Assembly (NCBI GenBank): GCA_037349105.1
Contig: JAYJMM010000019.1
Span: 372,001 to 436,000, forward strand
Direction of reading: 5' to 3'
Length of the DNA: 64,000 nt
Origin: Limnomonas spitsbergensis
Lineage: Eukaryota > Chlorophyta > Chlorophyceae > Chlamydomonadales
The position numbers were made by a program, and so were the translations under genes. The notes under the pieces were generated by a model, which was not told the origin of the DNA, did not search any database, and saw only the letters and a program-made list of their open reading frames with translations. This document shows, one piece after another, positions 10,092-37,605 of the stretch; position 1 is the stretch's first letter; each line of letters begins with the position of its first letter.

Positions 10092-10095
10092 GCCT
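10092..10095. repeat. Target-site duplication GCCT, left
   Basis: GCCT abuts the TGTCACAG left end of the retrotransposon, and GCCT abuts the right end GCGACA at 28778-28781. Adjacent TTG microhomology means the duplication could be read as up to 6 bp. Requiring TG...CA ends gives 4 bp. Confidence 0.7.
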
Positions 10096-10750: not shown

Positions 10751-11425
10751 GGATCTAGCCTGATCAGCCTGATTTGCCAATTCCTGCTAAAGGTGCTTGT
10801 GCAGCGAGATTGGAATTTTGTTTGTATGCAAACAACCTTGGACAGCATATGAATTGCACTTTGCTGTGGTAATCTCCATAGAGAGTGCCAAGTTAAGCCC
10901 TGAGAATCACTAAGAGTGGCAACTTAGTGTTGAGTCCAGGAGAGGCTTGAGGATCTGGCTGTGGATTTATACACCCAGCAGATAATTCCTGTATGACTGC
11001 AGATTGAGATCAGGTGGATCCAATCATTCATCATTGACAGAAGTAAACTTGTTGACAGATCATCCAAGGTTAAAATTTTGTGGTGTACCAAAGGATCCCC
11101 GCAGGTGTCAGAGAGGAACTGACACAGCGCAAGATCCGCCAGGAGGCAGACATCCGCAGGGGACGTGCGCCAGCTAGAGGCAGCCCAGCCAGCAAAGGTG
11201 GGAAGGGGCTAAAAAAGGGCGAAGGAGGATTCCGCCAGATACAAATATTAGTGAGCATAAAAGCAGAGGGCAAGGCCTATCGCGCAAAATTGCTGTACCT
11301 GCCGTCCAGCCTTGACTAGCAGATCCTCACCAGGTTGCAGTAAGGATAAGGAGCAGAAGCCTAAACGTTAGCAGGTTTTGTAGGGGGTGTCGCCAGCACG
11401 CCTGCAGAACAGTGCGGTTCGTAAA
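10751..11425 (+). other. Retrotransposon leader
   Basis: Untranslated leader between the primer-site candidate and the first in-frame ATG of the polyprotein at 11426. The frame is open from an upstream GTG at 11387, but ATG is the expected eukaryotic start. No other feature is recognised. Confidence 0.6.
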
Positions 11426-14400
11426 ATGCCTGTAGAGATGACAGGCATAGATCTAAACCCCGATAGGCACCAGCACCCTGACGTCCAACGGAGGAGTGGG
11501 CGTCTGAGGGGGCTGGAGCCGGGAATAGACCTAAAAAATGCTAGTGCTGAGATTGTGGCAGAAGCCCTGTTGATAGCGGAAAAGCTGTCAGAGCCAGTAG
11601 AACCGCCCGCAGAGGATTGCAGGGTACGTGAGCCAGACCGTGTACCACCCAGAGGGGCAGGGGCGCAGGCAGATGGTGCAGTACTAGTAACACGAAAAGG
11701 CATTGGTCGAGGGGGTCCGTTGCCCGCTGGTTCCGACAGCTGTCTGAATTTCGAGCAGGGGCAGACTCAAGCGGGAACCCCAGAGTTGATCTTGGATCAA
11801 GCAACGGAAGCATCCCAGAGCTGTGACACGCGACAGAGCAGTGCACCTGAGGCCGAGCCGCAGCAGAGCCTGCCCAGGGTGGCAAGTGTTACACAGCAGG
11901 TTGAAAAAGATCCCAGCCAATCGGGTCTAAGGGCAGAAGTAGCCGCAGCTTCAGACAAGTTTGCAGGCTGGCATAAGACCTGCGAAGTCAAACCTCGAAT
12001 AAAGACGGAGGGAGATGGGGCCAGGATTGTGCCTGCAGAGGTCAAACACGAGGAAGATGAGCCACAGCCAGCAGCAGGCAGACAGAGCTCGCAGGCAGGC
12101 AAGGACAGGGAGAAACCAGCTGAGCCGGTAGGGAAGCCTTGGGCTGATCTATCCGAGGAAGAACAGCCAGACCCAGTTCAGGAAAAGCAGGGGCAGCAGA
12201 CTACAGCAGAACTGCGTCCCGTGCAGCAGCTGCAGCCGCGCAAGGCACTGGTTAGAAGAGGAGCTGGATCCACAGTCTTCGGCACACCGCTGTCCAGTTT
12301 TCCACCCAGCGTGAACAGACCTGCGCAGACGTCCAAGGAGGGATCTGGCAGCCAGAGGCAGAGAGAGCCAGAGCGCTCGGAGACCGGGGGAGTCGCGTGC
12401 GGAAATGAGGAGGTAGAAGGGCCGATCGGTTGGGCAGGAATTGTGCAGTGGGCAACAGACCTGTGGAAGCAAGTGTGCTCCAGGACGTTCTTGCATTTCC
12501 AGGACCAGGTCACAGCCATTGAGGAGTTCAAGGCCCATCATCTGCGGGGATGGGCAACAAAGGCCATGTTGGGTATCCCCCACACAGGTCTGGACAGGGC
12601 GCTACTGTTAGCCGCCCTTGGACAGGTATCCAAGGGAAGGACGGGACACGAAGCAGCCAGGGCTGTTAAAGCCTTCGCAGACGAATGGTGCAAAGAGGTC
12701 ACAGGAGACCAGGAGGAACCTGGGTCAGAACCAGAGGATGAGGAGGACCAGGTGTGGGAAGGATTTGAAACAGGGGTGCAGCGGCCTGAGGGGATCAGGG
12801 AGGTGCAAAGGTGGCAGCAGCAGGCAGGAGCCGCGCCAACACCAACACTCAGATCTGCAGCCTTCGAGGTCAGCAGCGAGCCCAGCCTCAGAGGACGGCC
12901 AAGGGGCAGGGAAACACCCAGAGCCAGCAGTCCAGCCGCCAGCGAAAGGGCGGAATTGACTAGCCAATCACTTGCCAGAATGGCAGAGCAAAGCACAGCG
13001 ACACGCAGAGCAAGCAAGCAAGAGTCTTATGAGTTGCTGCGCATAGTCGAGGACAAAGAGAACGCATACCAGGAAACCCAGGTGGATTACATCAAGGAAT
13101 TCCTGAGGAACAGGCAGCCAGGCGCGGCAAGAGGAGCTAGGAGGAATGAGCCTGCAGGCAGCGCACAGAGCAGTGGCCCAAAAATACAGGAGACCAAAGA
13201 GGAAACACAATCTGATTCCTACGCCAGGAATTACACAGGCGGGACGCAGCCAGGTCGGCAGAGCCGGGAGCCGCCCAGGGGGCAGGCATACTCCAGGGAA
13301 CAACCTCACCAGCATAGCCAAGAGCCGCCCAGAGGACAGGCAGAGGGCAGGGAACAGCCAAGCCAGCAGAGCCAGGAGCAATTAAGGGGACCAGCGGAAC
13401 GCAGCAGAGGTGTGCGGCAGGAATGGCAAGACCAGGAGCTGCCCAGGGGACAGGCAGAGCCCGGCAGAGCACAGCCGTGGAGACCTGGATCTGACAGCAG
13501 ACCAAGCAGAAGCGAACCAGAACGACCGCCACCCGAAGGAAGTAGAGGCTCGGCAGGCAGAGCGGGCAGACAGCCATCACGAGACGCTCACGATCATGAT
13601 GAGGATTATAACAGACATGACAGGTATCAGTCAGGCCGCAGCCCATCGAGGGGCGGCAGTGGAGGACCTAGGTCGCGGTCAGGGTCAGTAGATTCGGGAC
13701 CAGGGGGAGCGGACAGACGCAGGCCAGGAGCCAGACAGGAGTCCAGCGACCAGGAAATGAAAAGGCTCGATCGGGAGCAGGCGAGGGTGAACCTGCAGCT
13801 GCAGCAACAGATGGTATTGCAGCTGGCAGGGGTAGCCAAGGTAGCCAAGATCCCAGCCATCCAAGGCAACGTACCAGTCCTGGATATGTCACACCCAGGA
13901 GCGGTTGCAGCCAGAAAGTATTGCCAGGCGTGTGGGTACTGGGGATCGCACAACAGGTTGGCAATGTCAGATGACCAACCAGCATTGGCCGTGGTGGCAG
14001 GTGAAATAGCTGGATCATGCCAGTCGCCGTCAGCTATGACGTTGCTGATCAAGTCGCTGGTCAAGCTGTGGGACAGCAAGCCTGCCAGCATGAGGCCGCT
14101 GATGGCAGCCATCAGGGCAGCGCCCCACGCAGGAAACAGAATTGCCAGAGAGGTGGAGCGGATCGGACAGCAGTGGATAGCCCCAGCGGAGCAGCAGGGT
14201 TGCGAAGCTTCGCTGCTCACGTTGTGGATCAGGGTGGTCCAGGAGGAGGTGGGAAAGCCAACTTCAGAGGAGAGGACGGCCATCACCAACCTCAGGCTAG
14301 GAGTAAAAACTACTCTAGACCCGGACGTCAAGCCAGAGGAGACGGTGGAAGCATTTGCTCACAGAGTACTGACAACGGCAGAGTTGCTGCAGATCTCAAG

Positions 14401-17400
14401 GGATGCAGTAGATCACTTCGGCAGAAGCCACTCGGTCTCGCGCATGTTCCATGACGGACTCCCAGCGGTTGCTAGAGCCAAGCTGAGCAAGTTCGTTATG
14501 ACGGTGCCAGGGTATCTCAGCATGAGCGATGAAGACCAAATCGCAGTACTCACGCAGCAGGTGGTGCTGTGGGAGAGGTTTGCCCTGGAAATGGGTGACC
14601 TGGGAGGTACCGGCTTCAGGCAGATAACCAACAGCGGGCCTGGCCAGGGAGAGGCACAGCCCAACAGGGGCAGGAGAGAGAGAGCAGGACAGTGGGAGAT
14701 GCGAACACGCCTTGATGGAATTGTGCACCCCACAGGCTCAGCAGCAGTACCACAGGCGCGGATGGATGGTAAACCCAGAGGAGTTACCTGGGCGGACCAA
14801 GCAGGGGCGGCAAATTACAACGCTGAGGGTGGCTCAAGCGCAGCCAAGGCATGCTACCAGTGCGGTAGTACGTCGCACCTAGCCAGGGATTGCAGGGCGC
14901 CCAGGGCCAGGGATGAGCGCAGACCTATGCCCCTGGTTACAGACATCACACCTGGACCGGCCAGACAGCCGCAACAGCAGTATCCGCAGCAACAGCAGTA
15001 TCCCCTGCCGCCAAGGCCGCAGCAGGGACAGGCGGCAGGCAGGTCGTATGACAGGAATCAGAACAATAGACAGTATCCTAGGCCTGGGCCTGGCCAGGGA
15101 GGTCAGGCGCAGCAGGCAGCCCACGTGTCGCATCTCAGCAATGCAACGGGGCAGGCTGAGCCAGAGGGATGGCACCAGACCATGGCAGAGATGCTCAGCG
15201 AGTCCGTAGCACTCATGACGCAGGTTGGGCTGGTACCCAAGCCTGCAGGTTTCAAGCAGGCAGTTCATAACGCCCGTCCTAAGTCGTTTTTGCCAGAACC
15301 TTTGCAGGAGGAGGAACCAGTACCAGGATTCACGGTACAACCCTCCAGGAAGGGAGCAAAGAGGCTGGTATTGAGTAAACTAGCTGACGATATGTCTGAC
15401 ATCCGCCTACAGGTGTTCAAGTTGAACGAGCGGCTCTCAGCGCTGTCGTTCACCACGATGCCCATGGGAGGAGACAACACCGGCCACAGGGGTGAGACTA
15501 GTAACACCAGGCCAGAGGGTAGAACGGTGACGGCTGCACCCAAGCTGCAGTATTTCAAAAATGACAGAAGCAACCTGGAGCAGTGTGTGGGACTTATGGT
15601 CAATGGGAAGGTCCTGGTGGCTCAGAAAGCACTCATGGACTCCGCATGCACGTGCCATGTCATCACTGTCAATATTGCAGAGCAATTAGTTGCCATGGGG
15701 GCGGAGCTGGTGCGTACAGACGAGAAGATTCGTACCACAGACAATGCAGGGGCAGATCTGTATGGAGTACTGTTCATTTATGTGGTGTATGGATACGGAG
15801 GGCCCAATGCCATTATGGAGCCCACGGTGGTCAGGGTCGTTAAGACACCACCGGATGCATATGAGCACTTGGTAGGGAACCCAGAGTTCCTCAAGTGTAA
15901 CGGGGTCTTAGAGGCAGCAGGAAGGCTGACCTTACGGCCCAGAGAGGGCCCACAGAGAGTGCAAGGGGTCAAGGACCTTACGCTGCCACTACTGCGGGCA
16001 TCTCCGGCAGGGGGGTACCAGGCAGCAGCAGTGGCATGGGCAGGAATTCAGTGTGGATTCGCAGAAAGAGAGGGGTGGCCAGCTGCAACAGTTGAAACAG
16101 AGCACGAACCGCTCTTACAGCATTCCATGGCCACACGCGCAGGTACCGCTATGAGGGCCGAACAGGGCGCAGGACCCAGCAGCGAGCCAAACCCCAGGCT
16201 ACAAAGGCGCAGGCCGGTGCCAGTCGAAGCAGCAGTGGAAGAGACCGCCACACCAACCGCAGAGGAGATGGCAAGAGCGCGCAGAGCCGCGGAACTCTCT
16301 GACGTTGAGAAGAGGGCGGTCAGGGACTTCATGCCAGCATGCCCCGCCTACCCGTGCGCCTTGTGCGGAAAACCAGACAAGCACGCGGTGGAGGAGTGTG
16401 AGAGGAGGATTCAGGAATTTTCGCGGACACCCGAAACAGCGCCTGCGGTGCAGGCAGGGCCGCCTGCAGCGCAGAGGAGGGGATACGGCACAGCTGCAGC
16501 CGATAGACCTGCACAGGCAACTTCAACGCGCAGCAGGGGAGAGCAGCAGCAGCAACAGCAGCAGCTGCAAAAGCAACCGCAGGTGGCAGGGCCTAGAGTG
16601 CAGCAGGCCAGCAGCGGCAAGGGTAGGCAGGCGCAACAGCAGCAGGGGCAAGGAAAGCCAGGGGCGGCAAGGGCCCCCGCGCAATCAGCCAGCAACAGCG
16701 AAGATGAGGCGCAGGAAGCAGAGGAGGAGGAAGATTGCAGCGTAGAGAAGGTTCCAGAGCCAGGGACCAGCCCACAAGACAGGCAAATCAACAGGCTGGC
16801 AGGGCAAGTCAACGGGCTGAAAAAGGCTCTAAGATGGAGAGAGCGGCAAATGTGGAAGCAGTCAGCAGAATTTGTGGATTACCTGAAAGGCCAGCTGGCT
16901 GGGTGGAAGGTCATCACGGATGGTCAGCAGGTCATGACAACGGTCCAGCGAGAGTACATCCTGCGGGCAGAGGAGCTGACCGGGCTGCAGGAGGCCCTGG
17001 GACTACAACACTTGGGGGGGCCGCCAAACCACGGGCAGCCGCTCCCATACGAAACAGACCCAGAGTTGGCGGGGTGCGTCAGGGCAATGTTGGCGACTCC
17101 GTCCCCGCTACGAGACGTGGACAGCGAGCATTCCGGCATGGAGGAGCCGAAGAAGCGCAGTCCTTCTAGCAGCGACGAGAGCGGCTCAGGGGACAGAAGG
17201 CTACGACGGCGCAGCAGAAGCGCGCAAAGGGCCATCAGTGAGGAGCGCCAAGGGGCGGTGCCAACGCCGGCAGCCAGGACCCAGCGGCAGGGCGCAGGGA
17301 GGCGCAGCAACAGCGAGGAAAGGAGCAGGGACCGCAGACAGCGGTCACCATGCAGGGACCAGCCCAGGGGCAGATCCAGGGAACGGCACCATGCTGAGGT

Positions 17401-20400
17401 TGCCAGGCCTTACAGGCAGGGGCAGGAGCACCAGAGAGGCCCAGGCCCCGGGCCGACAAACAGAACCCTGGCAGAGGGCAGCGGGGCGGCAGAGCCTAGG
17501 CGTCACCTGGGACCGCGCCATGGTGGATTGTGCTTCAAGTGCAATCAGCCGGGGCACTTTGCCAACGAGTGCACCAACCCGGAGCAGGCCGGGCTGACAG
17601 GCGACAGGCCAGGGGCGCCTGCAGGCCCAGCACGGGGCTATGGAACCTGGGGCCCAGGCAGGGGCCAGGGGATGCCCATGGAGAGCAGGCGCAGGACCTT
17701 CGATACTGCCATGGGAACTCCCAGTGCAAGGGACTTCCAGCAGGGGGCAGCAGGCCCCAGCGCGTGGCCAGAACCGCCAGCGCGACAGGAACCACCGGAG
17801 GGCGAGCAACCAAGGTGGGAGGGGACAGGAGGCCACACGTGCTTCATGACAGGCCACATGGGAATTAGCCAGGACAGAGATGCCTACCAGGCTGAGGTCA
17901 GTCAGGCAGGACCAGTTCAGGTGGCCCCTCAGAGGGTGCCAGAAGGGCAGGTAGCCAGTCAGGTAAGCCACTGGGCGATGGCTGTAGAGGCGTTAGCCAT
18001 GAACCATTATGGGACTATGCCTGCAGGGTCGGCCAGATCCGTAGCACATGCGTTGGAGTTCTTGAAGGATCTCCAGAGGAGGGGGTGCCCAGCTCCGTGT
18101 GTAGGATGGCCAAATCTGATGCAGAGGTTCCTAGACAGGGAATGGGACAAGTATGATGAGCAGTGGGATGAGTTTGAGAGACGCGAGCGGGAGGCAGTAC
18201 CCCAGCACGACGTAGACGGGTGGGATACCGATTCAGGATCCAACCTTTCAGCAGGCAGATATGAGCCTCAGGAACCCTCGCCCTTGCATGAAAGAGAGTT
18301 TGGCGTGTTATGTCCAGGTACCCCGGAGGGCAATCAAGACACAGGCAGAGGGGTAGCGGGAGCAGCCGCCGAGACAGAGGAGCCACACAGAGCGGGGTTG
18401 CGACTCCCAGCGGCCAGAGGGACCGCAGCAGGGAGCCAGCTGGACGCTCGGGCGGGGCCCGTTAGGACCCATAAAGGCACCAGCTCTCGGTGCAATGCTT
18501 GGGGAGGAATCGACGAGGACGGAGAGACACAGCACGGCAGCGAGAGGGAAGGGAGGTCTGACGCAAGGGGCGAGGACAGGCAGCTTGACCAGTCCTTCAG
18601 CAGAGACAGGTCCTACAGCAGAGAACGCATCTACATACAGCCGTTCCCGCAGTCGCTGCCAGCAGGCGAACCCTTTGTGCAGTACTTCCGCCTGGGGGAA
18701 GAGATGCCAGAGGCGTCCACCTCCGGGGCCATGCTGACTATGCCAGGGGAGTGCAGGGACGGGCCATGTCGGTTGCAGAACCATAGGCTCCTGGACGGCG
18801 GAGAGCAGACATGTGTTGACAGGGCAGCAGCCATGCAGGCAGTTGCCAGGATGATTTTCCCGTGGGACGCAGTGACAGCTGTCATGCTGGGCGCTGCGCT
18901 CAAAGGATACATCCTGCCCAGCACAAATATAGCAGATTACATGCAGAGGGGATGGTCGCGGCACCCCATCTATGCATACTGCGTTAGCGAGATGGTGAGT
19001 CTCGCCATTGCAGCAGGCATCACAGCGGTGGATGCAGCATGCTGGGCGCACCCGGACATGCCAGACATTGCGCCAGCCGAGGGGATGTGGCAGGGCGCGC
19101 AGCCAGGATTCATGCGCACACCGTGGGCGATGGATTGTGTCCGTGAGCTGATGGGGCACCCAGCCCTCAGAGACCGCGCATTTTATGTGCCAGTCCAAGC
19201 CATGGGCGAATTCGAGAGATTTGTGGAAACAACAGAGCAGGCCCCAGTGAGGGCAGGGCTGTGTCACCCAGGCAGGCCAGGGCGGTGTGAGGCGACCATA
19301 GAGGCGTCCATCGTCATCCCCAGGACGGTCGCAGGACAAGCAGTGCCGTGGGGGCCAGCGCCAGGGGACGCCAGGGCAGCCATTCCAGTCCAGCAGCTAG
19401 TAACTTACTACTATGAGGAGATGGCTGATGAGGAGTTGCCCGTTTCATCGGCATGGATCCACATGCACGCGACTCACGATGATATGCCCGTCTACCTGTT
19501 TGCAAGGCACCAGCAGGACGTGGCAGTCACTAAGTGCGCGTCAGTAGACGAGGCGGAGTTCCATGCCTATACCTACGCTAGGGGAGCAGACCCGGCAGTG
19601 TGGACGCTCATGCTAATGGCGCTGCAGAGGGTCCTGCTCCCAGGACAGCGATCAGCGGCCATGCGGCATGTGTGGGGCGTAGAGAATCAGTGGGCGCCTA
19701 CAGAGGTAACAGCCTGTCCAACATGGCCTTACGGACCCCAGCAGTCGCCAGCATCAGGAGCCATGTGGGAAGGAGAGGAAGAGCTGGCGAGCTCGCCGTT
19801 CGCAGTAGAACGCCTGGCAGCATATGTGCACCAGTGGGTGCGTCAGGAGCGGAGGGCGTGGCACGACAACAGGGCCAGCAGCGTGCTGCCCTATTGGCAG
19901 GCTGACGTCATAACGACGCAGTTGTGGAGACAAGCGCACCCAGCAGGGGTGCGCACGCTGCACCCTCTGTTCAGAGGAGCAGGGGAAGTAGGCATCGAGG
20001 AGGAGTTGGAGGACTTGAGGAACCAGCCGAGTAGGGGACATGGGCCGGTGGGCAGGCGAGGCGCCGATGCAGAGGAGCCAGCGGCAGCCACCGACGGCCC
20101 TGTCCAGGATGAGGAGCCGGAATGGACCCAGGCGGCATTTGTAACATTTGGGGCGGCAGCAGCCTCATGGGAGCTGCTGGAGTATGTGGACGACTTGGGG
20201 GTATCAGCACTGGAGGCTGAGCCTAGGGGACGGGCAGAGCCCCAGGCGCCCCTGGACAGTGTCGGCACATCGCCCACGGAGGACTCAGACAGCAGGATCC
20301 CAGAGCTCAGCGACAACGTTTCAGAGGGCCCACCACCACTGGTTGAGATCACCGAGTCAGATGAGGAGTGGCACGAGGCAGGAGCCAGGCCCTCGGACCA

Positions 20401-23400
20401 GGATAGCGTCACCAGAGCAGAGGCTCGGGATGCAGAGGGCAACTACATGCCAGCAGACAGCGGCCCAGGACCAGGAAGTCCAAGGTACGGCATGGTGGGA
20501 GAGCTGCCACAGCTGAGGCGCGCGTGGATGCGCGGCATCTTTCAGGAGCAGGCAGCAATGAAAGAGCGCAGAAGCAGGAGGGCCGCTATAGAGCTCGGTA
20601 ACGGGATCACGCTGGAGGAGGAGGCAAACCAGGTCACAGCGGGGATCAGCCATCAGCAGGCAGCAGACCAGCGCGCTTGCAGGACCGAGGGGGCAGCAGC
20701 AGGCAAGGAGAGCAACGGGCGCCCAGGAGACCCCCAGATCAGCCCGCCAGCACAGACAGCGGCACAGGGGCCTTGGGGTGACCCAGCAGCGTACAGCACG
20801 GGACGCTGGGTTGCAGTGCTCAGGAACTTTGTAGATCAGCTGGACGTGCTACGAAGGCAGGACATGGGGCAGCAAGAGGCGGGCCAGGAGGCTAGCCTGC
20901 TGTTCCGACTTAAAATGCTACCACAGCCCGATCCGGACCCCAGGATGGGAGGTTACAGCAGGGCAGTCAGGGAGCTACAGGAGGAGCTGACGGAGAGAGT
21001 ATCAGCCCTCTACACGAGGAGAGCAGAAGGAGCGGACACCCAACAGCCGTCGGACAGCCGCAGCAGACAAGCCCAAACCGGCAGGGGCGAGGACCTCGCC
21101 AGAAGGGTTGCCGGCGCGCGGGAAACCATACGACGGGGCTGTGGGCAAGATGAGCCCGCGGGTGCAGGCAACAGCGAGGCTGTGCAGCGCGCCAACCACA
21201 GGCAGGAGAGGATGGCACAGTGCAGCACAGGACAGATCCCAGGAGCAGGGCCAGAAAGGGCCAGTGCGATTTGGGCTGACACTGCCAAGTTGCAAGGAAA
21301 AAATTCAAAGAAGGCCAGGCGACGTGCAGGAAAGGCGCAGAGGGCGGCCACGGACAGGAACCGTGGCAGCAGGCCAGGAATGGACTGCCCAACCCTGCCA
21401 CTCAGGATCAGCCAGGTAGACCTGGAGATCACGTGGGCCAGAGGACAGCAGCCGCCAGCGCAGATTGCAGAGCCAGGCGTTCAGCCCGCAGAACAGTTAC
21501 CGCAGCAACCCATGAGGAAGACGACAGCGTGCAGAGGACTCCTCACCTGTACAGCAATTAAAGGGATCCTTACGGGGGCGCTCCAGCTGATACTGGTGTG
21601 GCTTCTGCTGTCGGTGTGTGTGCCGGGGGCGCGAGCTACCGGGCAGGGAGTGCGAGGAGGAGGATTTACAGCAGGCCAAGGTGCTTTTGTTTCTGGCAGG
21701 GAGGCAGCAGCAAAGCTGTCGTCTGGATGGTTGCGCCCACCGGCTGTCAGCTCCATGAGGGACACCGGCGGGAGGGGCGCATGCAGCCAGCAGGAGAGAT
21801 GGCACAACGGCAACACCACTGGCGAGGAAGAGCTGCCCGCGGTGGACGACCCGCAGGCGGCTGTGGTGATCGACATGTTCCAGCCGGGGGGAGTAGTGGA
21901 GCCACCTGCAGAGTACGTCAAGACCAAGGAGGGATGGCTGCTGGGCAAGCACCCCGACTTCACTGCGGAGCAGCAGGAGAACCTGGAGCAGAGCCTCAGG
22001 GATCGCCAAGGAGCATTCGCTTACTCCATGGAGGATCTACCAGGCTACTGCGGCACGCAGGGTGAGTTTACACTGGCTTTAGAAGACGAGGTCAGTTCGT
22101 GCTTTCAGAAGTCCAGGGATATGCCACCGCCTAAAGCAGCAATTTTTAAGGAAAAGTGTCAGCCGATGATTGAGGCAGGCATCATAGTCAAGGTGCCCCA
22201 GGGGGGGCCTATCAAGTTTGCGGCCAACTCAGTAGTAGCAGCCAAAAAGAGTGCTGAAACTGGGGAGTGGACAGACCATCGAATAGCGCACGATATGCGC
22301 AGGTTAAACCTGCGTACAGCCAAGCAGGAATTTGCCATCCCCAGGATGGAGACTATTTTTCAGAACCTGGGCACTGCCAAGATATTCAGCAAGGTTGATC
22401 TCCGGTCGGGGTTCATGCAGATCCCTATAAAGGTCGAGGACCAGCCTAAGACAGCTTTCTGGATGGGACCTGAGCTGTGGATGTACACAAAGCTCAATTT
22501 CGGTCTGCGCAACGGGCCTCCTTTCTTTCAGCGTATGATGGAAGAGGAGATTGCCAGGGCAGGCCTGAGTGCGTTCTGCGTAGCATTCATTGACGATTTG
22601 CTAGTGTACAGTGACACACCGGCAGAACACATCAGGCATGTGGAGCTGATGTTGGACATGCTCCACAGTGTAGGATTAAGGGCGCACCCCGACAAGTCCC
22701 TGTTTGGGTGTGCAACAGTAGAGTACCTGGGTCACAATGTGTCGGCCCAGGGGCTCACGCCGCACGCTGCTAAGATAGCAGCAGTTATGGCGCTGCCAGA
22801 GCCCGCATCGGTGAAAAACATTCAGGAGGTCATGGGATTCTTGAATTTCTACCGGTGCTACGTCCCGGACTTCTCGAAAAAGGCAGCATGCATTAACGCA
22901 TTGCTGGTCCAGGGGGTCCCGTTTGTGTGGGGGCCAGAGCAGTCGCAGGCGTTCCAGTTGATTAAGACAGAGATGTGCGAGGGCGGGAGAGTCCTGCGCA
23001 GACCAGATTACAGTGGGACAGGACCAGACGGCAAGGGGCCGCCAAGGCCGTTCTTGTTGTACACAGATTTCTCTAAGCAAGGCATAGGCGCAGTGCTAGG
23101 GCAGTGTGATGACAGCGGGCGGGAGTATATGGTGGCATGCACATCCAGATCCCTGAACAAGAGCGAGAGGAACTATTCCTCGTTCCAGGGGGAGATGCTG
23201 GCCGCAGTGTATGCAGCACGCACATACCGCCACATGCTGTTTGGGTGCAAGGTGCATCTCATCACTGACCATGAGCCGCTCACTTACCTCATGGACAACC
23301 AGACGTTGGTAGGCCAGCACGCTAGGTGGGCTCTCATGCTTCAAGAGCTAGACATTACCATTGTCCACCGCTCAGGAGCATGCCACCAGAATGCAGACAT

Positions 23401-24922
23401 CCCGTCCAGATCCCCCCTCCCATCCTCAGCTGACCGCACAGGGGCCAGGCTTGATACAGTCGCGCCCGAGCCAGCAGCCAGGGAGGAGGCAAGTGGGAAG
23501 CAAGTAGCTTTGCTCACAGGGTTGGGCAGAGTGAACCAGTGGCATGCAGACCAGATAGTGCGCATGGCGCAGGAGGGCAGAAGGAGAGTACAGATGTTGC
23601 GAGCTGCAGAGGCAGCTTGCGTGACAGCACCGGTGGGGCAGGAAATATCCTCTGCCGCCACTGACGATGATGAACAGGCGCAGCCTGTCAGTACAGCAGA
23701 GCAGGCGTTCAGCAACAGGGAGCGATCCAGGACGATGATCAGTGATGTTCTTGCTGACCTGCCTCGGGTGACGCCCCCTCATTCCCTTGCAGGCCTGGAT
23801 ACAGCTTGCCTGTCAAGTGGGGCTGTGCGGGCCATGGAGACCGAAGGAGTCGTCCTCTTCGAGCCTTTTGGAGGTATGTGCTCAGGGCTGGAAATGGTAC
23901 TCAGGGCAGGTATCCCAGTAGTGCAGTACTTGTATGCAGATATCAGTGAGGAAGTCAGAGAGATCGCAGGGGGTCGCCTGTTGCAGTTGCACAAGAGATT
24001 CCCCCAGTTGCTTCCGGTCAGAGCGTTTGATAAGGCTTTCAGAGCGTTGCCGCAAGATGTGTATGCCATTACGGCAGAACACCTCAAGGAGGCGGGTGCC
24101 CAGGAGGGGCGCCAGTGGTTCATGGTAGCAGGCTGGGAGTGCCAGGACCTTTCGTCAGCTGGCAAGGGGCGGGGGCTCGCGGGAGAGAGAAGCAAGTCTT
24201 TCTTCCCGTTAGTCAAGCTGTTGGGTACTCTGCAGTTCCTGCAGGGACCTAGGCCGCCAGCGTACCTGATTGAGAATGTAGCAATGCAATTGAATCAGAA
24301 GAGTGAGAAGGCCAGTGTTGAGGCTTTTCAGGAAGTGTGCAGGATTCTAGGGACACCGGCGTTGTTTGACGCAGCGCAGGTGGGGTCTTACGCCCACCGC
24401 ACCCGCAACTATTGGGGGAATATTGCCCCTGCAGCAGATATTGAATTTGTGATTCGTGCGTCGACCAGACCCCACGAGGGGATTGTAGACGACATTCTGG
24501 ACAAGGGCAGCAAGGCCCAGGTAGTATCATGTCCGGACAATGGGGGGTACCGCATCAATGTCACAGGGCAACCCAGGAAGGTGCTGCCGTGTTTGATGGC
24601 CACGCCCTCATCATATGCTTTCCGGAACGGGCAAAATGGGATGGTGTACAGGCCCATGGGGGACTTGCAGGAGCCCAACGCAAACGAGCGTGAACGCGCC
24701 ATGGGGTACGCTGTGGGGTCCACATTGCCGCGCCCAGACTTCCCAGAGGCAGCCAGACGGGCAGCCTTGGGCAGGTGCATGGATTCATGGGCACTCAGTG
24801 CATGGCTCAATGTGGCACTCGAGTGTGCTAAGATCATGCCAGCAGAATTGACACGCAGGGCAAAGCTGCCAAGCCAGGACAGGGACCCAGTGCTGGGGGC
24901 GACTTTAATGTCCAGCCACTAA
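11426..24922 (+). CDS. Retrotransposon polyprotein: gag, retropepsin, RT, RNase H, DNMT3-like C5-methyltransferase
   Basis: 4,498 residues from ATG 11426. A disordered Gln/Arg/Glu-rich N-terminus leads to a gag-like helical region (about 870-1060) and a CCHC knuckle at 1143-1156 (CYQCGSTSHLARDC). A protease motif LMDSACTCHVIT has its Asp at 1405 (DSA where DSG/DTG is usual). A variant knuckle starts near 1644 and a third knuckle is at 2036-2049 (CFKCNQPGHFANEC). An unrecognised globular stretch spans about 2450-2870. A hydrophobic segment, about 3377-3400, precedes RT (about 3575-3830, catalytic FIDD at 3721-3724). RNase H follows (about 3878-3995: YTDFS, QGEM, ITDHE, NADIPSR). From about 4140 to 4475 lies a C5-methyltransferase: motif I FEPFGGMCSG, motif IV GWECQDLS with Cys 4239, motif VI ENV at 4283-4285, motif VIII HRTRNYWGN, motif X-like LGRCMDSWALSAWL. 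The HRTRNYWGN and ENVAM text favours DNMT3-type enzymes. The Pro before the catalytic Cys is Glu. The frame ends at TAA 24920-24922. Confidence 0.92.
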   Translation: MPVEMTGIDLNPDRHQHPDVQRRSGRLRGLEPGIDLKNASAEIVAEALLIAEKLSEPVEPPAEDCRVREPDRVPPRGAGAQADGAVLVTRKGIGRGGPLPAGSDSCLNFEQGQTQAGTPELILDQATEASQSCDTRQSSAPEAEPQQSLPRVASVTQQVEKDPSQSGLRAEVAAASDKFAGWHKTCEVKPRIKTEGDGARIVPAEVKHEEDEPQPAAGRQSSQAGKDREKPAEPVGKPWADLSEEEQPDPVQEKQGQQTTAELRPVQQLQPRKALVRRGAGSTVFGTPLSSFPPSVNRPAQTSKEGSGSQRQREPERSETGGVACGNEEVEGPIGWAGIVQWATDLWKQVCSRTFLHFQDQVTAIEEFKAHHLRGWATKAMLGIPHTGLDRALLLAALGQVSKGRTGHEAARAVKAFADEWCKEVTGDQEEPGSEPEDEEDQVWEGFETGVQRPEGIREVQRWQQQAGAAPTPTLRSAAFEVSSEPSLRGRPRGRETPRASSPAASERAELTSQSLARMAEQSTATRRASKQESYELLRIVEDKENAYQETQVDYIKEFLRNRQPGAARGARRNEPAGSAQSSGPKIQETKEETQSDSYARNYTGGTQPGRQSREPPRGQAYSREQPHQHSQEPPRGQAEGREQPSQQSQEQLRGPAERSRGVRQEWQDQELPRGQAEPGRAQPWRPGSDSRPSRSEPERPPPEGSRGSAGRAGRQPSRDAHDHDEDYNRHDRYQSGRSPSRGGSGGPRSRSGSVDSGPGGADRRRPGARQESSDQEMKRLDREQARVNLQLQQQMVLQLAGVAKVAKIPAIQGNVPVLDMSHPGAVAARKYCQACGYWGSHNRLAMSDDQPALAVVAGEIAGSCQSPSAMTLLIKSLVKLWDSKPASMRPLMAAIRAAPHAGNRIAREVERIGQQWIAPAEQQGCEASLLTLWIRVVQEEVGKPTSEERTAITNLRLGVKTTLDPDVKPEETVEAFAHRVLTTAELLQISRDAVDHFGRSHSVSRMFHDGLPAVARAKLSKFVMTVPGYLSMSDEDQIAVLTQQVVLWERFALEMGDLGGTGFRQITNSGPGQGEAQPNRGRRERAGQWEMRTRLDGIVHPTGSAAVPQARMDGKPRGVTWADQAGAANYNAEGGSSAAKACYQCGSTSHLARDCRAPRARDERRPMPLVTDITPGPARQPQQQYPQQQQYPLPPRPQQGQAAGRSYDRNQNNRQYPRPGPGQGGQAQQAAHVSHLSNATGQAEPEGWHQTMAEMLSESVALMTQVGLVPKPAGFKQAVHNARPKSFLPEPLQEEEPVPGFTVQPSRKGAKRLVLSKLADDMSDIRLQVFKLNERLSALSFTTMPMGGDNTGHRGETSNTRPEGRTVTAAPKLQYFKNDRSNLEQCVGLMVNGKVLVAQKALMDSACTCHVITVNIAEQLVAMGAELVRTDEKIRTTDNAGADLYGVLFIYVVYGYGGPNAIMEPTVVRVVKTPPDAYEHLVGNPEFLKCNGVLEAAGRLTLRPREGPQRVQGVKDLTLPLLRASPAGGYQAAAVAWAGIQCGFAEREGWPAATVETEHEPLLQHSMATRAGTAMRAEQGAGPSSEPNPRLQRRRPVPVEAAVEETATPTAEEMARARRAAELSDVEKRAVRDFMPACPAYPCALCGKPDKHAVEECERRIQEFSRTPETAPAVQAGPPAAQRRGYGTAAADRPAQATSTRSRGEQQQQQQQLQKQPQVAGPRVQQASSGKGRQAQQQQGQGKPGAARAPAQSASNSEDEAQEAEEEEDCSVEKVPEPGTSPQDRQINRLAGQVNGLKKALRWRERQMWKQSAEFVDYLKGQLAGWKVITDGQQVMTTVQREYILRAEELTGLQEALGLQHLGGPPNHGQPLPYETDPELAGCVRAMLATPSPLRDVDSEHSGMEEPKKRSPSSSDESGSGDRRLRRRSRSAQRAISEERQGAVPTPAARTQRQGAGRRSNSEERSRDRRQRSPCRDQPRGRSRERHHAEVARPYRQGQEHQRGPGPGPTNRTLAEGSGAAEPRRHLGPRHGGLCFKCNQPGHFANECTNPEQAGLTGDRPGAPAGPARGYGTWGPGRGQGMPMESRRRTFDTAMGTPSARDFQQGAAGPSAWPEPPARQEPPEGEQPRWEGTGGHTCFMTGHMGISQDRDAYQAEVSQAGPVQVAPQRVPEGQVASQVSHWAMAVEALAMNHYGTMPAGSARSVAHALEFLKDLQRRGCPAPCVGWPNLMQRFLDREWDKYDEQWDEFERREREAVPQHDVDGWDTDSGSNLSAGRYEPQEPSPLHEREFGVLCPGTPEGNQDTGRGVAGAAAETEEPHRAGLRLPAARGTAAGSQLDARAGPVRTHKGTSSRCNAWGGIDEDGETQHGSEREGRSDARGEDRQLDQSFSRDRSYSRERIYIQPFPQSLPAGEPFVQYFRLGEEMPEASTSGAMLTMPGECRDGPCRLQNHRLLDGGEQTCVDRAAAMQAVARMIFPWDAVTAVMLGAALKGYILPSTNIADYMQRGWSRHPIYAYCVSEMVSLAIAAGITAVDAACWAHPDMPDIAPAEGMWQGAQPGFMRTPWAMDCVRELMGHPALRDRAFYVPVQAMGEFERFVETTEQAPVRAGLCHPGRPGRCEATIEASIVIPRTVAGQAVPWGPAPGDARAAIPVQQLVTYYYEEMADEELPVSSAWIHMHATHDDMPVYLFARHQQDVAVTKCASVDEAEFHAYTYARGADPAVWTLMLMALQRVLLPGQRSAAMRHVWGVENQWAPTEVTACPTWPYGPQQSPASGAMWEGEEELASSPFAVERLAAYVHQWVRQERRAWHDNRASSVLPYWQADVITTQLWRQAHPAGVRTLHPLFRGAGEVGIEEELEDLRNQPSRGHGPVGRRGADAEEPAAATDGPVQDEEPEWTQAAFVTFGAAAASWELLEYVDDLGVSALEAEPRGRAEPQAPLDSVGTSPTEDSDSRIPELSDNVSEGPPPLVEITESDEEWHEAGARPSDQDSVTRAEARDAEGNYMPADSGPGPGSPRYGMVGELPQLRRAWMRGIFQEQAAMKERRSRRAAIELGNGITLEEEANQVTAGISHQQAADQRACRTEGAAAGKESNGRPGDPQISPPAQTAAQGPWGDPAAYSTGRWVAVLRNFVDQLDVLRRQDMGQQEAGQEASLLFRLKMLPQPDPDPRMGGYSRAVRELQEELTERVSALYTRRAEGADTQQPSDSRSRQAQTGRGEDLARRVAGARETIRRGCGQDEPAGAGNSEAVQRANHRQERMAQCSTGQIPGAGPERASAIWADTAKLQGKNSKKARRRAGKAQRAATDRNRGSRPGMDCPTLPLRISQVDLEITWARGQQPPAQIAEPGVQPAEQLPQQPMRKTTACRGLLTCTAIKGILTGALQLILVWLLLSVCVPGARATGQGVRGGGFTAGQGAFVSGREAAAKLSSGWLRPPAVSSMRDTGGRGACSQQERWHNGNTTGEEELPAVDDPQAAVVIDMFQPGGVVEPPAEYVKTKEGWLLGKHPDFTAEQQENLEQSLRDRQGAFAYSMEDLPGYCGTQGEFTLALEDEVSSCFQKSRDMPPPKAAIFKEKCQPMIEAGIIVKVPQGGPIKFAANSVVAAKKSAETGEWTDHRIAHDMRRLNLRTAKQEFAIPRMETIFQNLGTAKIFSKVDLRSGFMQIPIKVEDQPKTAFWMGPELWMYTKLNFGLRNGPPFFQRMMEEEIARAGLSAFCVAFIDDLLVYSDTPAEHIRHVELMLDMLHSVGLRAHPDKSLFGCATVEYLGHNVSAQGLTPHAAKIAAVMALPEPASVKNIQEVMGFLNFYRCYVPDFSKKAACINALLVQGVPFVWGPEQSQAFQLIKTEMCEGGRVLRRPDYSGTGPDGKGPPRPFLLYTDFSKQGIGAVLGQCDDSGREYMVACTSRSLNKSERNYSSFQGEMLAAVYAARTYRHMLFGCKVHLITDHEPLTYLMDNQTLVGQHARWALMLQELDITIVHRSGACHQNADIPSRSPLPSSADRTGARLDTVAPEPAAREEASGKQVALLTGLGRVNQWHADQIVRMAQEGRRRVQMLRAAEAACVTAPVGQEISSAATDDDEQAQPVSTAEQAFSNRERSRTMISDVLADLPRVTPPHSLAGLDTACLSSGAVRAMETEGVVLFEPFGGMCSGLEMVLRAGIPVVQYLYADISEEVREIAGGRLLQLHKRFPQLLPVRAFDKAFRALPQDVYAITAEHLKEAGAQEGRQWFMVAGWECQDLSSAGKGRGLAGERSKSFFPLVKLLGTLQFLQGPRPPAYLIENVAMQLNQKSEKASVEAFQEVCRILGTPALFDAAQVGSYAHRTRNYWGNIAPAADIEFVIRASTRPHEGIVDDILDKGSKAQVVSCPDNGGYRINVTGQPRKVLPCLMATPSSYAFRNGQNGMVYRPMGDLQEPNANERERAMGYAVGSTLPRPDFPEAARRAALGRCMDSWALSAWLNVALECAKIMPAELTRRAKLPSQDRDPVLGATLMSSH

Positions 24923-26950
24923 GCCCTTGCTACTGCAGGAAACGCGTGCTCTGGCAGCGGGGAAGCGGCCGCGTCATACAGACAGTGCCTGGGAGAATCG
25001 GCCGCGGCAGACTGGGCCGACGCGGCACAGGAACCAGGTGGGAACGCGTCTGAGGCACGAGTTGATGTTGAAATCAGAGTAACCAGGGAAATAGAGAGTG
25101 AGAAGGACCAGCCAGGTTGTCCTGCAGGACCGTCGGCTAGGGTTGATGTGTGGGCGTATGAGCCCGTCTTGAGGTTTCTCCGTGAAAAGACTTATGTCCA
25201 GGGAACAGAGCTAGGAGAACAGACTAGAATACAGCGCAGAGCAGCGCCATTCCAGTGGGAATCAGAGAGGGGAGGAGTCCTGATGAGACTCATGCCTGAT
25301 GGTAGACGTTGTGTGGTGCCCAGGCCAGAAGACAGGCTAGCAGTGATCCAGACAGCGCATGCAGGTACGGGCCATTTCGGCAGCCACCGCACGGCTTTCA
25401 TGGTCATGCAGCAGCATTGGTGGCGGGGGCTTCGAGCAGCAGTCAAGAAGGCGGTGCAGGAATGCGGTGTGTGTGACAGGGCCAGGGCATCCACGTTCAA
25501 TCACATACAGCCCAACCTGCACCCGCTACCCATTGAGGGGTTGTTTTTCCGGTGGGGAGTGGACCTGTGTGGTCCATTCACGACCACTTCCAGGGGAAAT
25601 CGGTTTGTGATGGTGTGTGTGGAGCATTACTCCAAATGGGTGGAGTTGATCCCCATTCCAAGCAAGGCGTCTGATGTGACGGCCTTGGCATTCTTTCAAA
25701 ATGTTGTTGCACGATTCGGGGGATGCGCAGAGGTGGTGACAGACCAGGGAACAGAGTTCCAGGGTGAATTTCAGGACATGTTGTTGGACTGCTTCATTGA
25801 CCATCGCACCACTTCTGCCAACCACCCCCAGGCAGACGGGCTTTCCGAGAGGGCTGTCCAGACCCTCAAGGCAGGCCTGCGCAAGTGCTGCGAGGAGGGC
25901 AGCAGCGACGAGCCCTGGGACAAGATGGTGCCCTGGGTAGCCCTTGGCTTCCGATGCTCGCCGCAGCAGGCCACGCGCATGGCGCCGTACGAGGTGCTGT
26001 TCGGACAGAGACCTACCTTCCCCTCCAGAGTGGGAGCGGACCTCTGGAGCACAGCCAAGGTGGCAACGGCAGAGGAGGCAGCAGACCTGCTTTTGGCCAG
26101 AGTGGCCAGGATCAAAGAGGCACTGCCAGTCGCGGGTGAGCATCTAAAAATTGCGCAGCACCGCGACAAGCTGCGATATGCACGCATTCGTGGGGGAGGG
26201 TATGTCCCCCAGGTCAGGCGTTTTGCAGAGGGAGATTACGTGTATGTGAAGTATTCGTCAGAGCGACGCAGCCTCGATCCCAAGGCCAGGCCTGAGATCC
26301 TCAGGGTAAAAACACTGGGGGCGACGGGAACTTTGGTGCTGGAAGGGGCAGATGGCCTCACAGTTACAGAGAATGCAGTCAATTGTTCCCCATGCCACTT
26401 GCCCAACCTCAGGGGAGTGGTTGATTTCAGTGGAACCAGACCCAATAACAGCCTGTCATGCGAGGTGTGCCAGCTGCCCGATCGCGGAGAGGTGATGCTT
26501 TTGTGTGATGCCTGCAATACAGGTTGGCACATGGACTGCTTGGTACCAGTACTCGAGGAGGTGCCTGAGGGCGAGTGGTTGTGCCCACACTGCACGCCGG
26601 AAGACAAGGGAGCTGGGCCCGCTGCAGTAGCAGGGCCCCCCACAGAGGAGCGCAGTTTACAGGTCCAGGGGCGACCGAGCCCAGCGGCCAGAGCGGCTGC
26701 CAGGACAGCCCAGGAGGCCGACGTCATGGACAGGCCTGAGGTGGAAGTCATGGCCACCAACCCAGCAACAAGGCAAATGGAGCGGGGCATCGCAAGACCA
26801 ATGGCGAACGGGTTGTATGACATCTCGTACACCACTGGCCGGGGAGAGGCCAATGTCACCCCGAGAGCAGTTACAAGAAGGGCCAAGGTGGCCAAAGAAG
26901 CAGCAAGGGAGGAAGAGGAGTCAGCCCTTGAGGATTTTACCGGGACCTGA
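24923..26950 (+). CDS. Integrase-PHD part of the polyprotein, same frame after TAA
   Basis: This is in the same frame as the upstream polyprotein, with no other stop from 24923 to TGA 26948-26950, so one TAA separates the two parts. There is no ATG before 25282, so independent initiation is not obvious. Integrase: zinc-binding HAGTGH...CGVC; catalytic Asp at 25562 (WGVDLCG), Asp at 25742 (VTDQGTEF) and Glu at 25847 (DGLSERAV), a DD(34)E spacing. An SH3-like, gypsy GPY/F-type tail region follows (VYVKYSSERRSLDPK...). A PHD finger at 26459-26593 has all eight C4HC3 ligands (CEVC...CDAC...HMDC...CPHC). PHD fingers commonly bind histone H3 tails, so a role in choosing insertion sites is plausible but inferred. 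Expression could be by readthrough or from a spliced RNA, or the TAA may be a mutation of this copy. Confidence 0.9.
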   Translation, partial: ALATAGNACSGSGEAAASYRQCLGESAAADWADAAQEPGGNASEARVDVEIRVTREIESEKDQPGCPAGPSARVDVWAYEPVLRFLREKTYVQGTELGEQTRIQRRAAPFQWESERGGVLMRLMPDGRRCVVPRPEDRLAVIQTAHAGTGHFGSHRTAFMVMQQHWWRGLRAAVKKAVQECGVCDRARASTFNHIQPNLHPLPIEGLFFRWGVDLCGPFTTTSRGNRFVMVCVEHYSKWVELIPIPSKASDVTALAFFQNVVARFGGCAEVVTDQGTEFQGEFQDMLLDCFIDHRTTSANHPQADGLSERAVQTLKAGLRKCCEEGSSDEPWDKMVPWVALGFRCSPQQATRMAPYEVLFGQRPTFPSRVGADLWSTAKVATAEEAADLLLARVARIKEALPVAGEHLKIAQHRDKLRYARIRGGGYVPQVRRFAEGDYVYVKYSSERRSLDPKARPEILRVKTLGATGTLVLEGADGLTVTENAVNCSPCHLPNLRGVVDFSGTRPNNSLSCEVCQLPDRGEVMLLCDACNTGWHMDCLVPVLEEVPEGEWLCPHCTPEDKGAGPAAVAGPPTEERSLQVQGRPSPAARAAARTAQEADVMDRPEVEVMATNPATRQMERGIARPMANGLYDISYTTGRGEANVTPRAVTRRAKVAKEAAREEEESALEDFTGT

Positions 26951-27668: not shown

Positions 27669-27685
27669 GGGGAGCGGGGGGCGAG
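27669..27685 (+). other. Polypurine tract
   Basis: GGGGAGCGGGGGGCGAG lies directly at the start of block A. Polypurine tracts prime plus-strand synthesis and define the left edge of the 3' LTR. This makes block A the start of U3 by reverse-transcription logic, even though the element's integrated left end is block B. Confidence 0.7.
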
Positions 27686-27915
27686 TAAAGTAGTAGGGGC
27701 GGTACCCACGAGACGGAGACTTCCAGGCAGAGATATCCAGTTAGGGACTTCCAGATACAGTTATCTTGTTGACACACTCTTGTCTGAAGTACAAGGAGCA
27801 TGAGTGTACGGTGATGTACCGTGTTTGTGAGTAGAGGACACCTCTCTAAGGTGTCCTGACCGGAGTTTACGGTATTTACCATAGTATTGCAGTTACTGCT
27901 TTATGGTGCGACAGC
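27681..27915 (+). repeat. Terminal repeat block A, internal copy
   Basis: 235 bp repeated at 28545-28779 with no difference seen. It contains a 9-bp hairpin stem with 5-nt loop (27835-27857, AGGACACCT arms). It ends GCGACAGC and runs directly into block B, creating the 10-bp palindrome GACAGCTGTC at 27910-27919. Confidence 0.9.
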
Positions 27916-28547
27916 TGTCACAGTATATTACAGTATACGTGACAGAACCGTTTAGACCGCAGTTAGCGTCATCGGTGACTCCGCAGCTTCTCTGCGGAGT
28001 CTCCGGATTTGAGCTGAGACCTAGAAACCCGCTTACGCAGGATTAGTTTGACAGGTTCTACCGTACTCTGAACTGGGCCTGCCGGGTCCCTGTATCCCGG
28101 CAATTGCCTTGGCTACTTACTTCGTCCCTTTCTAAAGGACAGACCTCTATTTTGTAACAAGCACCGGCAGTCTTTGAGACCAGCAGCTTCCATATAAGTC
28201 AGTACCTTAACTCGAGTCAAGCCTAGCTCAGCCACCGCTGATCTAGCTGGAGACAAGTACCCCAGTAAGAGAACCGAGACTCTGCAGAAGAAGAAGTACG
28301 CAGCCTCGTCCCGTCCGTCTCTCCGCGTGTTACGCGGTAAGTGTCCTTAACATAGCCCTGCTGGATCGCGACCAGACGGCCAGAAGGCCTATGCCCCCAA
28401 AGTCTGTTGCTATATATACACAATATCCACCTAGCTGCTTAACTCGAAGAGCACTCGCAGCCAGTGAGTAGTCACTGAGCCTGCCCGTAGGCGTCCGTCA
28501 CTGCAGTGAGGAAAGAAGTCCGCCACGGACCTGAAGCGCACCTCGCG
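27916..28547 (+). repeat. Terminal repeat block B, right copy
   Basis: This matches 10096-10727 with one base change. It holds the second copy of the primer complement (28119-28141) and of TGTAA (28153-28157). It is followed directly by the second block A with 3-bp GCG overlap (28545-28547), unlike the left copy, which is followed by the primer-site candidate. Confidence 0.9.
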
Positions 28548-28777
28548 AGTAAAGTAGTAGGGGCGGTACCCACGAGACGGAGACTTCCAGGCAGAGATAT
28601 CCAGTTAGGGACTTCCAGATACAGTTATCTTGTTGACACACTCTTGTCTGAAGTACAAGGAGCATGAGTGTACGGTGATGTACCGTGTTTGTGAGTAGAG
28701 GACACCTCTCTAAGGTGTCCTGACCGGAGTTTACGGTATTTACCATAGTATTGCAGTTACTGCTTTATGGTGCGACA
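28545..28777 (+). repeat. Terminal repeat block A, right-end copy
   Basis: Second copy of block A, forming the right end of the element (…GCGACA) before the GCCT duplication. The B-to-A join CTCGCG|AGTAAAG has the form expected of a U5-U3 (two-LTR circle) junction. Confidence 0.85.
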
Positions 28778-28781
28778 GCCT
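28778..28781. repeat. Target-site duplication GCCT, right
   Basis: Right member of the 4-bp duplication flanking the retrotransposon; it matches 10092-10095. Confidence 0.7.
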
Positions 28782-37435: not shown

Positions 37436-37527
37436 TGCTTGGTGCCTCGGAGGACCTGGGGCAGGGAGCAGCCGCCCTCAAACTATGCCAGGCAGCGACT
37501 GCTCTACTGCCTCTACCTGTCACAGAG

Positions 37528-37605
37528 GTCAATGACGTTACACCTCTGGGCCCTGCTCAAATAAGGCTCGGCCGCGCGGGCGCCTAACTACAGAGTTGGG
37601 AGGAA
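37528..37605 (+). repeat. MITE-like end repeat (TGTCAATGACG family)
   Basis: One copy of a dispersed sequence starting GTCAATGACGTTACACCTCT and continuing through CTCAAAAAGGCTCGGCCGCG and GTTGGGAGG-like text. Related copies are at 47199, 55170, 55436, 55905, 56482, 59028, 59640, 61003-61275, 61420 and 61940. Confidence 0.65.

Follow-up and report, generated by a model that had tools for sequence, protein, structure and literature searches.

Structure of the element

The window, by which we mean the whole 64-kb stretch of Limnomonas spitsbergensis DNA that was analysed, contains a retrotransposon whose reading frame ORF1 (11387..24922, + strand, 4511 aa, read from GTG) encodes a long gag region with a zinc knuckle (aa 2048-2064), a reverse transcriptase (RT), an RNase H and a methyltransferase (MT). 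The RT core (RVT_1) was located at 22277..22741 (+ strand, aa 3631-3785, Pfam E=1.1e-21) and RNase H at 22928..23347 (+ strand, aa 3848-3987; PF17917 E=1.5e-29, PF17919 E=1.3e-20). ORF1 is closed by an in-frame TAA (24920..24922, + strand), beyond which the same frame resumes at 25148..26950 (+ strand) with an H2C2 zinc finger (Integrase_H2C2, E=2.5e-11), an integrase core (rve, E=3.7e-10) and a PHD finger (E=1.2e-10). In the Pfam scan the DDE integrase core (rve) occupies 25553..25828 and the PHD finger, downstream of the core in the same frame, 26459..26593, both on the + strand. Ten further ORFs in the window gave no Pfam family above the cut-off, and Rfam and tRNA scans of the 64 kb were empty.

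Many near-identical copies of the element exist in the L. spitsbergensis genome, and 117 of them, spread over many contigs, were scored. The polyprotein of the family runs in a single frame in the order gag-RT-RNase H-MT-integrase-PHD. A position for the MT between RNase H and integrase, as the sequence-only reading had it, is thus borne out by the domain order, while in the window the TAA intervenes before the integrase. This stop is private to the window copy, since a sense codon stands at the same position in 27/27 other copies compared. Taken as one statement, it is probable that the window element is a young insertion whose polyprotein frame has been broken, belonging to a recently active Ty3/gypsy family.

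Split repeats and insertion

The element is flanked by two identical target-site duplications GCCT (10092..10095 and 28778..28781, unstranded), and its repeats, all on the + strand, are arranged as A1-body-B1-gc-A2-B2. The terminal repeat A1 (10096..10727), which starts with TGTCAC, shares 99.8% identity with its pair A2 (27916..28547) and was seen in each of the 16 further copies with ends that were read. B1 (27681..27913), ending in GCGACA, is 100% identical to B2 (28545..28777), which forms the right end of the element (...GCGACA) and overlaps A2 by the letters GCG. B1 and A2 are joined by a GC spacer (27914..27915, CA-GC-TG junction), and the identical GC was found in 14/14 other A2-bearing copies. 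At the TG...CA ends, 4-bp target duplications are perfect in 15 of 17 copies, the remaining two having 3/4 bases in one case and a broken right end in the other.

Split direct repeats of the type A1-B1-A2-B2 define PAT/Ngaro elements (DIRS order). Considering that the layout A1-body-B1-A2-B2 is found in the window and in 14/16 other copies, the element could be classified by its repeats as a tyrosine-recombinase (PAT/Ngaro/DIRS) retrotransposon. However, Integrase_H2C2 and rve domains are encoded in place of a tyrosine recombinase, no phage-type recombinase is among the Pfam matches to ORF1 and ORF2 at E up to 0.1, and we consider this classification very improbable; a DIRS element was rejected on the rve integrase and the 4-bp target duplications. 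The order RT-RNase H-integrase with a DDE (rve) core is that of Ty3/gypsy elements, which also begin with TG, end with CA and duplicate 4-6 bp of their target, but two identical full terminal LTRs were not found, as the left end consists of A only and the right end of B-gc-A-B. The split-repeat layout is given for DIRS in the 2018 report PMC5890265, and Gypsy is regarded there as distantly related to DIRS.

Both repeat pairs, A and B, are renewed at each transposition, and this pattern limits the ways in which split-repeat elements with a DDE integrase can copy their ends. Inspection by eye of the stretches after A1 and before A2 settled on neither a polypurine tract nor a primer site for the first strand, so the replication scheme stays an inference. 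The transcript would run from A1 to B2 and lose its outermost ends, which the RT might restore by copying the internal B1-gc-A2 junction, with one switch in A and one in B; the integrase would then trim the GC spacer and insert the linear DNA.

The methyltransferase domain

The DNMT3-like C5-methyltransferase domain (23792..24826, + strand, aa 4136-4480) was recognized by Pfam, by profiles and by its predicted fold. Motifs I, IV, VI and VIII and a C-terminal motif X-like stretch are all present in unpermuted order; the last of these aligns to DNMT3A, weakly when taken alone (9.8 bits). The Pfam match in ORF1 (PF00145, aa 4245-4314, E=6e-5), in the same frame as RVT_1 and RNase H, is thin by itself, being just one bit above the cut-off. 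Against known enzymes, a profile built from eight relatives gave E=7e-23 for DNMT3A, 5e-8 for HaeIII, 2e-7 for HhaI, 6e-7 for DRM2 and 2e-8 for 4onj, which we take to be a DRM. By these E-values DNMT3 is a closer match for the domain than either DRM or the bacterial enzymes.

Folding from the single sequence reached a pLDDT of only 36, whereas 23 aligned sequences yielded a usable model, which matches DNMT3A/3B over residues 22-362 of 368 with about 23-24% identity to the animal enzymes in the structure alignment. Profile search and structure prediction, both proposed as checks by the sequence-only reading, therefore agree with its claim of a DNMT3-like enzyme lying after RNase H in the frame of a gypsy polyprotein. 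We regard both the fusion and the DNMT3-like identity as practically certain. The MT domain, with its predicted fold and catalytic residues, is conserved over the copies and over green algae. Very likely it is under selection for a function in transposition; the N/S result for the domain is based on 22 variants.

The Glu-Cys of motif IV

The usual Pro-Cys of motif IV is absent from the window MT, which has Glu-Cys instead (GWECQDLS; 24137..24142, + strand). The catalytic Cys, given as residue 4239 in the sequence-only reading, is confirmed, but in the numbering of ORF1 used here it is residue 4252 (codon 24140-24142), an offset of 13. The change of Pro to Glu had also been called odd, but GWECQDLS is found in 29/29 copy rows (counting the window and its duplicate entry), and among 67 full-length rows of the family Pro-Cys accounts for only 17, Glu-Cys being common to most. 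On the sequences compared, the change is old within the MT clade and is no lesion of the window copy.

A Glu ahead of the catalytic Cys could weaken catalysis. Because of this residue it may be supposed that the domain methylates DNA weakly or not at all and that its fold is kept for another job such as nucleic-acid binding, a scaffold, or RNA or primer methylation. The presence of Glu-Cys in as many as 49/67 full-length rows speaks for such a view, as does the report that KnitGypsy-Dnmt3 produced no methylation in yeast, a result that its authors call inconclusive (PMC5890265). However, the catalytic Cys, the ENV Glu-Asn and the motif VIII Arg-x-Arg show no variation in either of two alignments (23 and 8 sequences), whereas in a dead enzyme one would expect some losses among them. 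Moreover, in the MT tree, for which human DNMT3A alone served as outgroup, a subclade of 12 Pro-Cys rows is nested among Glu-Cys rows, suggesting that either residue can work in the same architecture. We therefore consider a change of job rather unlikely, and the conserved Glu-Cys motif offers a test of what the Pro in motif IV does.

Relatives and age of the fusion

The same MT is fused to RT or integrase in four named chlorophytes, and related domains were also found in Closterium and in many metagenome proteins. In Closterium sp. NIES-68 CLOM_g18840 (P0056) and in the metagenome proteins P0055, P0059, P0061 and P0089, the related MT belongs to gag-protease or RT proteins. Its place varies: it lies behind the protease in P0056, P0059 and P0089 and before the RT in P0055 and P0061, unlike the window, where it lies between RNase H and integrase. 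P0056, P0055, P0059 and P0061 have Glu-Cys as in the window. No protein named as Klebsormidium nitens was among the relatives matched, most of which are nameless, and a pattern search of IMG/VR found no close relatives.

It might be argued, since Pfam alone gives just E=6e-5, that the fusion is private to one copy, a passenger gene or an assembly artefact. The 117 copies on many contigs refute this, as do the homologous fusions from metagenomes and from other species, and we give it next to no credence; the private insertion that had been named as a refuting outcome was thus looked for and is not what we see. Telomeres of the type TTTAGGG, a Rubisco fragment and the kin that bear an organism name, four of five of them chlorophytes, point to a green-algal host that is probably a chlorophyte, in line with the chlorophyte gypsy case that had been suggested. 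However, a further capture, in the sense of an isolated event, does not describe the data, because the fusion recurs in the four chlorophytes and MT distances among the relatives parallel those of RT and integrase. The partnership, being found in other green algae, looks old and kept rather than accidental.

Comparison with known elements

REM1 of Chlamydomonas reinhardtii, likewise a gypsy element from a chlorophyte, has a PHD finger too and is not known to carry an MT. Animal DNMT3A/3B catalytic domains, the best fold and profile match for the window MT, have Pro-Cys and no retrotransposon context, in contrast to the Glu-Cys of the window. By published description, the closest known element is KnitGypsy-Dnmt3 of K. 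nitens (PMC5890265), with which the window element shares the two features defining that type, a Dnmt3-related MT in the gypsy Pol and DIRS-like repeats; the host of KnitGypsy-Dnmt3, however, is a charophyte. The legend of Figure 4c describes its repeats as DIRS-structured and its domains as typical of Gypsy, and according to the authors its MT is under purifying selection, its copies are fewer than those of the Symbiodinium element, and acquisition is considered independent in the K. nitens lineage (PMC5890265). That second element, SymbioDIRS-Dnmt3, likewise has Dnmt3 in Pol and A-coding-B-A-B repeats, and its MT is active on CG in yeast, but it possesses a tyrosine recombinase and a dinoflagellate host, whereas the window element has a DDE integrase (PMC5890265).

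According to two other papers, DNMT3 occurs in retrotransposons of streptophytes and dinoflagellates (PMC12344493), and green algae are mentioned in passing among hosts of DAM-/DCM-encoding retrotransposons (PMC6338049). In a literature search that covered mainly open-access papers and no bioRxiv preprints, we saw no DNMT-bearing gypsy element described from a named chlorophyte. A gypsy-Dnmt3 with such a repeat layout was already known from a charophyte (PMC5890265), and what is new here is the extension of this kind to chlorophytes.

Possible role of the methyltransferase

Cytosine methylation is normally a weapon of the host against transposable elements; in this case the weapon is in the hands of an element that is abundant and was recently active. 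As its likeliest role we propose self-methylation of the cDNA, a choice that falls somewhat short of being probable. The MT would travel in the particle alongside RT and integrase and would methylate CG (or other) cytosines of the fresh double-stranded cDNA ahead of integration, so that the new copy might look on arrival like any methylated DNA of the host; the PHD finger may steer the integrase onto chromatin.

Alternatively, the MT could act on the host once the element has inserted, methylating the target region or the genome at large and silencing neighbours or older copies. We judge this, too, rather unlikely: release from the RT/integrase polyprotein would put the MT first with the cDNA. 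It is nevertheless in keeping with the PHD finger following the integrase in the same frame, with the low CpG observed/expected of the DNA flanking the element (0.54-0.71) and with the spill-over of methylation in Symbiodinium discussed by the 2018 authors (PMC5890265).

C-to-T variants are enriched about threefold at CG, which fits methylation by the host or by the element, and host methyltransferases alone could account for all of this excess. The CpG observed/expected of the element, 0.586, falls within the range of the flanks, so that the element bears no CpG mark of its own. There was no overall C-to-T excess among the variants (70 C>T or G>A versus 72 T>C or A>G), indicating that deamination is not the main source of change.

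Returning to self-methylation, a broader picture may be sketched tentatively: an old and widespread green-algal gypsy clade with an integrase, whose split-repeat replication, neither classic LTR nor tyrosine-recombinase, would renew two repeat pairs per cycle from an internal end-to-end junction, and which would carry a DNMT3 lineage with a working Glu-Cys, in place of the nearly universal Pro-Cys, that methylates the element's own cDNA before insertion. The 2018 report was based on one charophyte and Symbiodinium (PMC5890265). The green-algal family added here has dozens of relatives and numerous young copies, so that the question of why a transposon keeps an MT becomes testable in a group of which some species can be cultured.

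Organization of the polyprotein

In the window copy, ORF1 (gag region, reverse transcriptase, RNase H and the methyltransferase domain at 23792-24826) is followed by a TAA at 24920-24922 (+), beyond which the integrase frame (H2C2, rve and PHD; 25148-26950, +) continues in the same frame as ORF1. In a 29-row alignment of the window, its duplicate entry (L002) and 27 further copies, a sense codon was present at the TAA site in 27/27 of the further copies. In the genome-wide search we counted a single open frame of 5043-5256 aa spanning the methyltransferase (MT) in 27 of the 117 scored copies. Both results indicate that the family encodes one polyprotein with MT positioned between RNase H and integrase (IN), and that the window copy is a broken member. 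The sequence-only reading, which placed MT there in one polyprotein, thus holds for the family and fails for the TAA-interrupted window copy. A hydrophobic, signal-anchor-like segment lies directly ahead of reverse transcriptase (RT) at window 21542-21616 (ORF1 aa 3386-3410); by eye, a similar stretch precedes RT in the related proteins P0101 and P0006.

Repeats and insertion marks

The element carries A1 at 10096-10727, B1 at 27681-27913 followed by GC, A2 at 27916-28547 and B2 at 28545-28777. Among the 17 copies whose ends were compared (the window and 16 others fetched), A1 was found in 17 and B1-gc-A2-B2 in 15, with B2 of L074 broken. Perfect 4-bp duplications surround 15 of the 17; one pair is alike at 3/4 bases and one is unreadable. 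The copies in L017/L018 and L077/L078 have the form A1-body-B1, without A2-B2, and a perfect target duplication directly after B1; they could stem either from B1/B2 recombination or from an A-body-B form that inserted directly. Ignoring gaps, which occur in L027/L028 and L073/L074, mismatches between A1 and A2 averaged 1.1 within copies (15 copies) and 9.3 between copies (136 pairs), and those between B1 and B2 averaged 1.7 within (15 copies) and 5.0 between, with 18 of the 26 within-copy mismatches coming from the broken L074. Since differences are smaller within copies than between them, both repeat pairs of each insertion derive from one template, as in an LTR pair, and most insertions are young.

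This repeat layout is that of PAT/Ngaro elements. It corresponds also to that of KnitGypsy-Dnmt3, as given in the legend of Figure 4c of PMC5890265. Unlike the layout, the insertion marks of the element are of the DDE integrase type. Its ends, we infer, would be restored from the internal B1-gc-A2 junction.

For Klebsormidium nitens, de Mendoza et al. 2018 (PMC5890265) described an independent capture of Dnmt3 by the Pol of a gypsy element whose repeats are DIRS-like; Symbiodinium DIRS elements also carry Dnmt3, and in yeast the SymbioDIRS domains gave CG methylation and the K. nitens domain none, a result from which the authors draw no conclusion. The L. spitsbergensis family belongs to the same kind. 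Relative to that description, the present data add chlorophyte carriers, beyond one charophyte species, and, with the K. nitens element compared by description alone, the Glu-Cys motif, two MT positions, the 4-bp duplications and the renewal of both repeat pairs.

Copies and selection

Searching the element's own genome with the MT protein gave 1059 first-look candidates, of which the best 117, window included, were scored; best candidates are scored first, and more divergent families would stay hidden. MT identity was 97-100% across all 117, and 114 were free of internal stops in MT. The N/S-like ratio, with transition and CpG weights that we assumed, was calculated over 23 rows (the 29 minus the window duplicate and five poorly aligning ones). 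For MT it was 0.40, from 11 N (one of them a stop) and 11 S (P=0.03); RT gave 0.36, the RNase H and linker part 0.22 and the integrase part 0.42. On these small counts, MT is under as much constraint as the other polyprotein parts.

The copies in L029, L037, L038, L042 and L043 gave just 86-88% alignment across the 4 kb compared, yet their MT is near identical. Four of them appear to lose the frame in that alignment; because the genome-wide search found open frames 2968-4617 aa in length, real damage is less likely than an upstream indel that shifts the fetched edge.

Relatives and domain order

Three protein searches (62, 35 and 7 proteins) yielded 103 different relatives, with the organism shown for five: Haematococcus lacustris (RT-MT-IN), Chlamydomonas eustigma (MT-IN), Monoraphidium neglectum (RT-MT), a Chrzof1 gene model that we read as Chromochloris zofingiensis (MT-IN, the integrase part just begun) and the streptophyte Closterium sp. 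NIES-68 (protease-MT). The orders among the 103 were RT-MT-IN (28), MT-IN (24), RT-MT (12), MT alone (36), MT-RT (2) and MT-RT-IN (1). Precomputed Pfam annotation also places a G-patch domain (PF01585) in P0014, P0022 and P0025.

In the tree, the full-length proteins among P0055, P0056, P0059, P0061 and P0089, which are MT-before-RT or protease-MT, fall outside the 62-row main group, as do P0074 and P0076. P0011, with a protease far upstream of MT and no RT found, lies inside it. MT thus occupies two locations among related polyproteins. Distances were correlated between MT and RT (r 0.74, 24 proteins), MT and integrase (0.58, 37) and RT and integrase (0.74, 17), values reached by 0/999 shuffles, which fits long co-inheritance.

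The Pro-to-Glu change before the catalytic Cys had been considered odd, a view that the relatives do not bear out. A motif search, uncurated by eye, of the 62 proteins from the first search found Glu-Cys in 44, Pro-Cys in 15 and Ser-Cys in 2, with the site missing from one; in 67 full-length rows (the window and 66 of the 103 proteins, 37 incomplete ones left out) the numbers were 49, 17 and 1. The main Pro-Cys clade (12 rows) is nested within Glu-Cys rows in the tree rooted on human DNMT3A, whose long branch joins the long branch of P0056, as the program warned. Glu-Cys is thus old, shared by most of the family and no lesion, the direction of change at the root being unsure. Pro-Cys also occurs in P0076 of the outer group and, scattered through the main group, in P0027, P0041, P0079 and P0104, a pattern that argues against a simple history of the motif.

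Methylation traces

Over the 23 rows and both strands, C-to-T variants were present at 27/378 CG, 10/624 CHG and 33/1311 CHH sites (CG versus remaining contexts, odds ratio 3.4 with p=8e-6, or 2.5 with p=0.009 when singletons alone are counted). No overall C>T excess was found in these rows, where 70 variants of the C>T or G>A type compare with 72 of the T>C or A>G type. The CpG observed/expected ratio was 0.586 for the element; four flank stretches gave 0.54-0.71. The CG bias fits copies that are methylated at CG, and nothing in it is element-specific; since no trace is peculiar to the element, authorship of this methylation by its own enzyme is not established.

Genome surroundings

TTTAGGG repeats were present at 7 of 20 contig ends read. 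GGCATC- or GGGGCATC-type repeats, instead of telomeres, end contigs C4, C36, C38, C41, C120 (L057, L068, L060, L055, L051) and C19 (L050); these could possibly be a large satellite or an assembly breakpoint. Contig C39 holds a Rubisco large-subunit fragment for which green algal entries, such as 1gk8 of Chlamydomonas, score best and land-plant ones slightly lower. Taken with the TTTAGGG ends and the relatives of named organism, this fragment indicates a chlorophyte host. Long G-rich tandem arrays (~36 bp spacing) and a low-complexity region (9-21-bp spacing) occur at window 42612-43802 and 5218-7700. Outside the element, dispersed short repeats, 87-97% alike, lie at window 37516-37623 and 55160-55266, and at 59030-59090 and 61420-61480, and are perhaps ends of other mobile elements.
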